This document shows, one piece after another, positions 24,280 through 43,379 of a stretch of DNA of 64,000 bases. The DNA comes from an uncultured Lachnospiraceae bacterium (GTDB lineage Bacteria > Bacillota > Clostridia > Lachnospirales > Lachnospiraceae). The notes under the pieces were generated by a model. That model was not told the origin of the DNA and made no database searches. It saw only the letters and a program-made list of their open reading frames with translations. The DNA is taken from contig CAJOFQ010000001.1 in the NCBI GenBank assembly GCA_905233955.1, positions 1 to 64,000 on the forward strand. The letters are read 5' to 3'. The translations under genes and the position numbers were made by a program. Each line of letters begins with the position of its first letter. Positions within the stretch are counted from its first letter, which is position 1.

Positions 24280-25322
24280 TGAAGGATAATAACATTACGA
24301 TAAACCAAATTCCTGCCAGGACTTATCGCTGGCTGTCAATGAATATGGCAAGCGTAAAGAGCTTTGATGGTGTTTTGGCAGATGCTTCATTTGATGTTCC
24401 AATCCAGTGGAGCCTGAAGGATCGCAGCTATAGTGCAGGATTGATGGCTACAGCCTTGGGAAGTGAATTTGATGACATTTTTACATCTTCAAATCTAAAT
24501 GAAAAGTATTTATCCATCTCAAAGCAGACTTCATCATCACAACCGATAAAGCTGACCTGTTATGCAGCAGATTCAAAATACGCCATGATTCCTGTGTATG
24601 TGGATGTGGAAAAAAATGCTTCCGGAACCATGATTATTTTTTTAGGCGGCAATGATTCATCAGCAGGTATGGCAGTTCAAGTCAGGATCAATCTCGAAGA
24701 AGCATCGGATTTCAGGCTTGTATGCGTGGCAGGAGCTTCTGTTGATAATGTTTTTTTGGATGTAGGAACCAGGCAGCAAGCCAACAGCTCATTTAAGCTG
24801 GAGCAGCTTTTCCTAAAAGGAAGCCATATTTACACCGGATGCCGAAGTGATCTTATAGGTGATGGTTCATCCTTTGATACAAAAATTGCATATGAGGTTT
24901 CAGGTGATGACAGACTGGATATGAATTATATAGTCAATCATTTTGGCAAGCGTACATTATCTGATATGATCGTATCCGGGGTTCTTAGGGATAATGCATA
25001 TAAGCTTTTCAGAGGCACTATAGACTTTAAAAGAGGTGCAAAGGATGCCATAGGTAATGAACAGGAAGATGTTCTGCTGTTGGATGATGGAGTGGAAAAT
25101 AAGACAATTCCGCTTATATTGTGTCAGGAAGAGGATGTAGAAGGCAATCATGGTGCAACCATAGGCAGATTAAGTGAAGAGCTTATGTTCTATATGATGT
25201 CGCGTGGAATGAATACAGAGGAAATATACGAGATGATGGCGGATGCCAGAATTGACTCGGTTTGTCGGAATATTCCCGATGCAGGCATTATTGAAGAGAT
25301 AGCCGGTCTTCGTAAAAGCTAA
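24279..25322 (+). CDS. sufD: Fe-S cluster assembly protein SufD
   Basis: SufBD core, EDVEGNHGATIGRLSEELMFYMMSRGM. Confidence 0.93.
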   Translation: MKDNNITINQIPARTYRWLSMNMASVKSFDGVLADASFDVPIQWSLKDRSYSAGLMATALGSEFDDIFTSSNLNEKYLSISKQTSSSQPIKLTCYAADSKYAMIPVYVDVEKNASGTMIIFLGGNDSSAGMAVQVRINLEEASDFRLVCVAGASVDNVFLDVGTRQQANSSFKLEQLFLKGSHIYTGCRSDLIGDGSSFDTKIAYEVSGDDRLDMNYIVNHFGKRTLSDMIVSGVLRDNAYKLFRGTIDFKRGAKDAIGNEQEDVLLLDDGVENKTIPLILCQEEDVEGNHGATIGRLSEELMFYMMSRGMNTEEIYEMMADARIDSVCRNIPDAGIIEEIAGLRKS

Positions 25323-36733: not shown

Positions 36734-36761
36734 GTGACAATCGGGAAAAATGATGTATAAT
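36734..36761 (+). promoter_or_regulatory. Promoter upstream of PepSY protein
   Basis: GTGACA (36734-36739)-N16-TATAAT (36756-36761). Confidence 0.65.
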
Positions 36762-36827
36762 GAAAATGCATTTTTTAATGCACTAAATAATTGTTTTATA
36801 TTTTATAATAGAAATGGAGGGAGTGTT

Positions 36828-37583
36828 ATGATTAAATTAAAAGAAAGATGGCGCAAATTGGCAGTTGTCGCTTCAGTATTTTCTGTAGTCTTGGGGATGT
36901 GCAGCGCAATCGCGGCTCCTGCTGCCGAAGGTTATGTAGCATCTGCAGCAAGTATTTCTGAATCCAAGGCCAGGCAGATAGCTCTTAGAAATGCAGGTGT
37001 CAGCAGCAGTAAAGCTTATGCGCTGGATAGCTCTACCGAGACAACAGAGGGCAGAAGTACTTTTGCAGTTTCGTTCTACAAGAAGAACAGCGAGACCAGC
37101 TATACTCATTATTATTACAACATCAATAAGAGCAATGGAAGCATTGTAAAGAAGTCATCCAAGCAATATACTACCATCAGTGCCAGCCGTGCCAAGGATA
37201 TTGCTCTTGACGATGCTGGATTTAGCAGAAGTGAGGTAGACGATCTGTCTGCAGAGTTTGATGAAGATGATGGCAAGCTGGTTTGGTATGTTTCATTTGA
37301 TGCAGATGATGACGATGATGACGACGATGATGATGACTACGATTACTACTACTATAGCAATGGTACTTATTACCCTTATTATTACTATGGCGGTACATAT
37401 TCTTACAGCGGACGCACCTACTATACTGAGAGCAACGGCCGTGTGTACTACTATGACAGTGACGGAAATAAGCAGTATACCACAACAACAGTATATTATC
37501 GCCGCAGCAAGGACAATGACGATGATGAAGAAAGCTATGATTATGTGATCAATGCCGTTAATGAGAATATCATTTCTGACTGA
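36828..37583 (+). CDS. Secreted protein with two PepSY-like repeats and Asp/Tyr-rich tail
   Basis: ISESKARQIALRNAGV and ISASRAKDIALDDAGF repeats; start MIKLKERW after GGAGGGAG. Confidence 0.8.
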   Translation: MIKLKERWRKLAVVASVFSVVLGMCSAIAAPAAEGYVASAASISESKARQIALRNAGVSSSKAYALDSSTETTEGRSTFAVSFYKKNSETSYTHYYYNINKSNGSIVKKSSKQYTTISASRAKDIALDDAGFSRSEVDDLSAEFDEDDGKLVWYVSFDADDDDDDDDDDDYDYYYYSNGTYYPYYYYGGTYSYSGRTYYTESNGRVYYYDSDGNKQYTTTTVYYRRSKDNDDDEESYDYVINAVNENIISD

Positions 37584-37594
37584 TGATTCTGCGT

Positions 37595-37836
37595 TATGAT
37601 TCAAGGGGTAAAATACCTTTTGAACCTAGCATAATATGATATGAGGGTCAAAAGGTATTTTGCCCCTCATTAATGATACGCAGCAGCACATTACATGTGC
37701 AATTTGCTGCTAAAACATTCGCAATTCTCGTGGATTTTTGTGTAAAATCCACTGCATTGCTCATGTTTTGTGGGTCATAAAGTCACAAATTTCCATGCAA
37801 GCATGAAAATTGTGACCTTTTGACCCTTGTATCATA
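37595..37836. repeat. MITE-like/hairpin intergenic element, copy 1
   Basis: Terminal repeats TATGATATGAGGGTCAAAAGGT (37635-37656) and reverse complement TATGATACAAGGGTCAAAAGGT (37815-37836); internal hairpins; an extra inverted arm at 37595-37627. Confidence 0.75.
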
Positions 37837-37867
37837 ATAAGGGAAGCGATTGAATTCGTTTCCCTTG

Positions 37868-38209
37868 GGGCCAGTAAAGGTTTCGACAGGGATCTTAAAG
37901 CCGGAGAAGCGAGCCGCACGGGAGGCGTTACATTCCAAAATTAAATTTAAATGCTGACGATTACGAATTAGCATACGCTGCCTGATTATGGCAGCAGTCC
38001 GCCTGAGGGTACCCATCCCTTCAGATACGGGCTTCGATCAGATGGGAAACGACATATACTAAGCTTTGCGTATATGGGCGTATTATGAAGCTACCGATCA
38101 TGTCAGGGTGTCCGTTTTCGGTCATGTGAGGGAATGTAAATAATGGACTACGCTCGTAGAAGGACGGGGGATGGGTTTTTGGACGCGGGTTCGATTCCCG
38201 CCTGGTCCA
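37868..38209 (+). ncRNA. ssrA: Transfer-messenger RNA (tmRNA)
   Basis: GGGCCAG/CTGGTCC acceptor stem, GGTTCGATTCCCGCC T-arm, tag ORF ending ...GAATTAGCATACGCTGCCTGA in a hairpin. Confidence 0.93.
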
Positions 38210-38254
38210 GTTGATGTAGAAATATTAAAGAGTTTTATAAAAAAATAGAGAATC

Positions 38255-41903: not shown

Positions 41904-42691
41904 ACAATTTTTTCAAACAATCCAAGCTTTTCACAGGCCTGATATATTCCGTCCTGGTCTACAGGAGCGGTGATATAGTCAGCCCGTTCCTTGACTTCCG
42001 GGACTGCATTGCCCATAGCCACCTTGTACCATCCGTCATCTGTGAACATGGACAGGTCATTAAGTGCATCTCCAAACACCACTGCATCCTTAAGATCTGC
42101 ATTAAAATGCTGCATAACCCGTTTGATGCCGTATGCTTTGTCTGCCGGTTCTACAAAAATGTATTCCTTGTGGAAACGGCACCAAGGGAGCTTTTTTAGG
42201 GATTCAAGAGCCTGCTCATCGGGCTCATAGCAGGCTATGTATGCTTTGTAGATATTATCATAATTGCGCGGATCAAGTCCCGGGACTATCCTGGTATTCA
42301 TGTATTTATCATCGGAAAATTCTTCAAAGCTTTTGTCAGGAGTAAAGCGGATTTTGGAGTCCTCCACCTGAAGACCCCAGGGGTATCCTTTTTCTATACA
42401 TTCATCAATAAGCTCTATTATATCTTCTTTTGGAAGGGGAGTTATGCCCAGGAATTCCCCGTCAATAGTTGCTCCGTAGCCTCCATCGCTTATCATATTA
42501 TCAAAATCCAGCTGCTGCATATAATCGGTGGCCATTGCATGCATCCGGCCTGTGGCAATACACATAAAATGACCGGCGTCCCTAAGCTTTTTAAGCGCAA
42601 GCTGTGTGGATTCAGGTATAAAACCGGCTCCGTATCCTCCTGCAACCAGTGTTCCGTCTATATCGAAGAATAAGTATCTTTTCTTAGCCAT
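41900..42691 (-). CDS. HAD-superfamily Cof-type phosphatase
   Basis: YLFFDIDGTLVAGG; VVFGDALNDLSMF. Confidence 0.92.
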   Translation of the reverse strand: MAKKRYLFFDIDGTLVAGGYGAGFIPESTQLALKKLRDAGHFMCIATGRMHAMATDYMQQLDFDNMISDGGYGATIDGEFLGITPLPKEDIIELIDECIEKGYPWGLQVEDSKIRFTPDKSFEEFSDDKYMNTRIVPGLDPRNYDNIYKAYIACYEPDEQALESLKKLPWCRFHKEYIFVEPADKAYGIKRVMQHFNADLKDAVVFGDALNDLSMFTDDGWYKVAMGNAVPEVKERADYITAPVDQDGIYQACEKLGLFEKIV

Positions 42692-42729
42692 GGTCTGCTC
42701 CTTTTTTATTCAAACATTTCAAAGAATAC

Positions 42730-42844
42730 TATGATGTTGGGGTCAAAAGTATTTGCCCCCAACTTAATTCGTGTTTGGGCGGGTCACAAAGTCTCAAATC
42801 ATTGCGCAAGCGCATGATTTGGACCTTTTGACCCTGATATCATA
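42730..42844. repeat. MITE-like/hairpin intergenic element, copy 2
   Basis: TATGATGTTGGGGTCAAAAGT at left and ACCTTTTGACCCTGATATCATA at right; two internal hairpins homologous to copy 1. Confidence 0.75.
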
Positions 42845-42992
42845 CTATATCTCATTATAATCACTTTTTCAATTATGGATTAATGCTTGCATTTACGGTA
42901 CAAATGTGATAATATCACAAAAGTTGTCTTTATGTAGATTGATTTAAGAGCTTTGTTTTTGGCAGAGCGTACTTATACAGGAGGATATCATA

Positions 42993-43270: not shown

Positions 43271-43379
43271 GTCATATGGGGGATTTTGTATTAGGAGCCT
43301 GGTACTGTCCAATGAACACGAAGTGTGAATTGATGACTCTAAAGGACTAGCTTCGCGTCGCAGTAGAGGAGATATTGTT

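Follow-up and report, generated by a model that had tools for sequence, protein, structure and literature searches.

Members of the Clostridiales-1 RNA family in a Lachnospiraceae genome are probably short, MITE-like mobile elements

The window analyzed here, a 64,000-nucleotide stretch of DNA from an uncultured Lachnospiraceae bacterium, contains at positions 37595–37836 an intergenic segment unusually rich in hairpins, and the question arises as to what kind of element this is. The initial annotation, made from the sequence alone, proposed a MITE, a REP-like element or a mobile structured RNA. We find that the segment is a genuine element with inverted ends, 198 bp long between two TAATA duplications, and that both copies in the window belong, with a probability of about 0.9, to a family of short, non-autonomous, MITE-like DNA transposons.

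Borders and structure of the two copies

The features that define the two copies and their surroundings are as follows.

37637..37834, minus strand: copy 1, a complete element of 198 bp with terminal inverted repeats TGAT-N4-GGGTCAAAAGG
37632..37636, no strand: left 5-bp target duplication of copy 1, TAATA
37835..37839, no strand: right 5-bp target duplication of copy 1, TAATA
37674..37834, minus strand: match to Rfam RF01699 (Clostridiales-1) within copy 1; 78.4 bits, curated gathering cut-off 48
37637..37673, minus strand: terminal hairpin of copy 1 (hairpin A), bearing the second inverted repeat; fold and covariation (helix 9)
37772..37826, minus strand: hairpin B, the 5' terminal hairpin of the RNA strand in copy 1; fold and covariation (helices 1–4)
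37597..37634, no strand: degenerate 38-bp solo unit, two terminal repeats back to back
42732..42842, minus strand: copy 2, a 111-bp internal-deletion derivative
42727..42731, no strand: left target duplication of copy 2, TACTA
42843..42847, no strand: right target duplication of copy 2, TACTA

The ends of copy 1 (37635–37656 and 37815–37836) are identical at 20 of 22 positions, as had been claimed, and its hairpins are present where they were first placed. The borders can be refined, in that the leading TA of each end as originally quoted is part of the target duplication TAATA. Copy 1 was also said to have more structure than a terminator needs, and its folding indeed greatly exceeds chance expectation (0/200 shuffles), with z = -10.8 for the minus and -9.1 for the plus strand. 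The second copy, expected near 42730–42844, was likewise recovered within its TACTA duplication and with a folding z of -7.2, and it scores 32.7 bits against RF01699 over 42682–42842, under the cut-off of 48.

The inverted arm reported at 37601–37627 is real, although it is part of a separate, degenerate solo palindrome of the same family, beside which copy 1 is inserted. Solo 38-bp palindromes of this form, with two terminal repeats back to back, are seen at loci L056, L061, L331 and L311. Some of these (L331 and L311) have 5–6 bp duplications of their own, so that even the minimal 38-bp unit may be capable of moving.

The interior of copy 1 is a member of the Clostridiales-1 family, with which it has three inner hairpins in common. 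Rfam types RF01699 as an sRNA gene, whereas the family of copy 1 is a mobile unit with inverted ends and target duplications. Furthermore, the Rfam model ends at the inner TGAT/ATCA stem and the mobile unit runs one hairpin longer, so that hairpin A, which bears the second of the inverted repeats, is beyond the model yet part of the mobile unit. In the main text of the founding paper, Clostridiales-1 occupies a single table line, where it is graded as probably an RNA, probably not cis-regulatory and probably not a riboswitch (Weinberg et al. 2010, PMC2864571). A search of the open full-text literature, in which that paper is covered by its main text alone, returned no paper describing Clostridiales-1 as mobile; what is new here is the link between RF01699 and a MITE-like element, together with the correction of its borders.

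Dispersal and insertion of the family

The absence of host copies beyond that at 42730–42844 had been named in advance as evidence against a mobile family, but many were found. In the host assembly, of 1.56 Mb and 65.7% completeness, there are 22 matches to RF01699, 20 of them with E < 1e-4, and 85 sites resembling the end sequence with no more than two mismatches, compared to 1 for a reversed-pattern control. The family is carried by 29 of the 61 genomes searched, the host included, and its copy number across these 61 is very uneven within one bacterial family, with some genomes having no match and the richest having 36 (30 in genome G007). Exact end sequences are present in many named Lachnospiraceae records, such as those of Muricomes intestini, Anaerosporobacter faecicola, [Ruminococcus] faecis and [Clostridium] symbiosum. 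In phage, plasmid and viral-contig sequences just fragments or single ends were found, and the family is therefore mainly chromosomal. One such plasmid locus (L419), at 24717–24762 of the Agathobacter rectalis plasmid NZ_CP143948.1, is a terminal unit similar to hairpin A that lies between tetracycline-resistance and aminotransferase genes.

Insertion was characterized in 44 copies from seven genomes in which both ends are present. Perfect target duplications flank 32 of these (29 of exactly 5 bp and 3 of exactly 6 bp), including all ten of the end-to-end copies in the host genome, and the number falls to between 0 and 3 when the border frame is shifted by one to three bases. In an independent set taken from named-genome records, 25 of 36 copies have a perfect 5–6 bp duplication, against 0.17 expected at shifted offsets. 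About a quarter of complete copies are without a perfect duplication. The target consensus is symmetric, A-TWWTA-T, with the central 5 bp duplicated. Short derivatives of 38, 70–75 and 105–175 bp retain the ends, and many retain the duplications as well.

Presence and absence differences were seen between sister species. Two copies in genome G032, of 196 bp and 70 bp, are missing from its sister species G061, in which the flanks are ∼72–85% identical; small additional differences lie alongside, hence these empty sites are not base-perfect. The search for empty sites that had been suggested thus revealed absence from a sister species for two related copies and gave no empty site for the two copies in the window. 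The ssrA regions of genomes G003 and G005, which have no element upstream of ssrA, were considered as an empty site for copy 1 and rejected, since smpB adjoins ssrA there.

Duplications of fixed length at inverted ends are characteristic of non-autonomous elements mobilized in trans by a DDE-type transposase. The family has short members with terminal inverted repeats (198 bp and 111 bp in the window; TGAT-N4-GGGTCAAAAG in the family), duplications of a set length (5 bp, sometimes 6) and dispersed copies, and these support the MITE option of the initial annotation. A DDE-type transposase encoded elsewhere would cut at the TGAT/ATCA ends, and the cut ends would then be joined to 5-bp staggered breaks at the AT-rich target. 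We infer the transposase, because an examination of longer inverted end pairs and unpaired ends, in a set that includes the 65.7% complete host, turned up no autonomous element with these ends. The longer pairs enclose host genes or have unrelated-looking ends without a flanking duplication; three candidates, of 3.7 kb on contig C11, 1.7 kb on contig C18 and 1.3 kb in genome G008, were rejected for enclosing host genes. Nothing recognizable as a transposase, as judged by eye, was seen at the other unpaired ends. As the host assembly is incomplete, an active source may be missing from it or have been lost.

Alternative explanations and the conserved interior

An independently transcribed small RNA gene, spread by ordinary duplication and with the inverted ends as its closing stem, would account for the Rfam match, the strong covariation described below and the promoter-like sites that precede some copies. 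However, the fixed 5-bp duplications are at the outer ends, outside of the Rfam model, there are tens of copies, and short derivatives retain the ends alone. As a full explanation it is contradicted by these observations and we consider it very improbable; the RNA might also be functional. The REP-like option corresponds to a REP/BIME/REPIN palindrome moved as single-stranded DNA by a Y1 (HUH) transposase. The family does resemble these elements in being composed of extragenic palindromes, both paired and solo, but it has target duplications, which are not left by IS200/IS605-type Y1 transposases, and no Y1/REP transposase was detected either in the incomplete host assembly or in the copy-rich G007. 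This option fares slightly worse than an RNA gene.

Tn3-derived miniature elements (TIMEs) share 5-bp AT-rich duplications with the family but differ in their ends, which begin GGGG in Tn3 and TGAT here, and a Tn3 transposase was found in 0 of the 61 genomes, while control genomes gave the expected signal; we give this derivation almost no weight. Just as little attaches to the proposal that the hairpins are only transcription terminators or attenuators of neighboring genes. Although they do lie in intergenic stretches, there is no terminator-like site around copy 1 or copy 2, and the homologous copies with duplications throughout the genome refute termination as the origin of the element.

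The family of MITE-like transposons favored here is similar to MITEs in general in being short and non-coding, with inverted ends, duplications and many copies, and differs from them in that no parent transposon was found and the fold of the interior is kept by compensatory changes. The latter was observed in an alignment of 26 diverse full-length copies, in which a structure of 54 base pairs, derived from the same alignment, is 91.3% formed. Both sides have changed at 32 of the 54 pairs, and the covariation of 0.312 compares with 0.136 in shuffled alignments and at most 0.079 when the structure is slid; the internal hairpins are thus maintained by compensatory changes. Unpaired letters are conserved too, with ATGAG...CGAAT and an inner loop GGGAG/CGGAG recurring. 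We attempted to identify the functional RNA strand from the counts of G-U and A-C pairs, which are 30 and 12 on 15 representatives, but this was abandoned, as a wider alignment gives 50 and 36, and 36 and 36 once a single pair is removed. The mobile structured RNA option is partly supported, in that the interior belongs to an RNA family in Rfam and covaries strongly, with an RNA function being putative. The fold may act either as DNA hairpins or as an RNA, in the latter case as a leader, stabilizer or small RNA, and the pair counts favor neither strand.

The nearest likeness, one of kind and by description, is to bcr1–bcr3 of the Bacillus cereus group, which are short structured intergenic repeats with tens of copies, often in UTRs, that have a 5-bp TTTAT border motif and are described as similar to MITEs in structure and function (PMC6542083, PMC3446304). 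The family described here differs from these in its host group, in the variable sequence of its TNNNA duplications and in its clear inverted ends. Few MITE-like families in bacteria, bcr1 being one example, have a covariation-conserved fold, and the present family adds to their number.

If both copies are MITE-like transposons, a catalogued gut-bacterial 'small RNA' family is a transposable repeat whose borders are missed by the RNA model, and what is annotated as RNA across many Lachnospiraceae genomes, with up to 36 matches in one genome, is best read as copies of a mobile element. The mobile element is then the starting point for those seeking a function for Clostridiales-1 RNA, and why a non-autonomous transposon retains an RNA-like interior is a question testable in culturable gut bacteria.

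Orientation and gene neighborhood

Among 64 complete copies, 20 gene starts lie within 60 nt of the 3' edge of the RNA strand in the sense orientation and 2 diverge from its 5' edge (p = 1.2e-4). The genes were called with a simple automatic start-site finder that is sometimes wrong, and its calls are doubtful in a few of the 20 cases, copy 1 among them. Copy 2, which precedes a HAD hydrolase gene, is a clear sense case. An element landing in the sense orientation before a gene, which is the orientation mostly seen near gene starts, could join a structured 5' leader. It is possible, though we think it unlikely, that the element is a transposon with a structured-RNA cargo that serves as a portable 5' leader, kept in sense in front of genes and maintained across genera, the fold of which, once transcribed, would help the element or the host and would be more than a structured end on which a transposase acts.

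The orientation bias would reflect selection after insertion and not promoter targeting, as the target is symmetric and there is no overall enrichment of -35 boxes. Insertion at promoter -10 boxes is hinted at by the 5' flank consensus TATAATA, the position of copy 2 directly behind TTGAAA-17-TATAGT, and a loose scan (p = 0.03), but was rejected as a general rule given the target symmetry and the lack of enrichment of -35 boxes at fixed spacing (p = 0.90).

Copy 1 lies upstream of ssrA, with 28 bp between its right duplication and the gene, and points away from ssrA. The right end of copy 1 and its duplication (37810–37838) form an outward promoter-like site towards ssrA, TTGTGA-17-CATAAT, which may be due to chance, there being two promoter-like sites compared to 1.0 ± 1.0 in shuffled sequences. 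In this part of the window (36750–38212) ssrA is preceded by a PepSY-domain gene, whereas in G003 and G005 the gene directly upstream is smpB, and the smpB–ssrA neighborhood is therefore rearranged in the host species.

A complete copy in G032 (C29:36683-37232) directly abuts a Y1 transposase gene that contains a stop codon, and this abutment is probably a coincidence. A second dispersed repeat lies at 43290–43365 of the window, just upstream of an RNase R-like gene, and has many matches in the host and in genome G004. Its core, CTAAAGGACTAGCTTCGCGTCGC, is also nested within two Clostridiales-1 copies (L112 and L240). Another nested insert, consisting of a GTCCAGTGGAC palindrome followed by GACCGTAGCGGAGCG, is present in a host copy and in a copy from another Lachnospiraceae genome (L141 and L352), and is perhaps another small mobile element that has landed in Clostridiales-1 copies.
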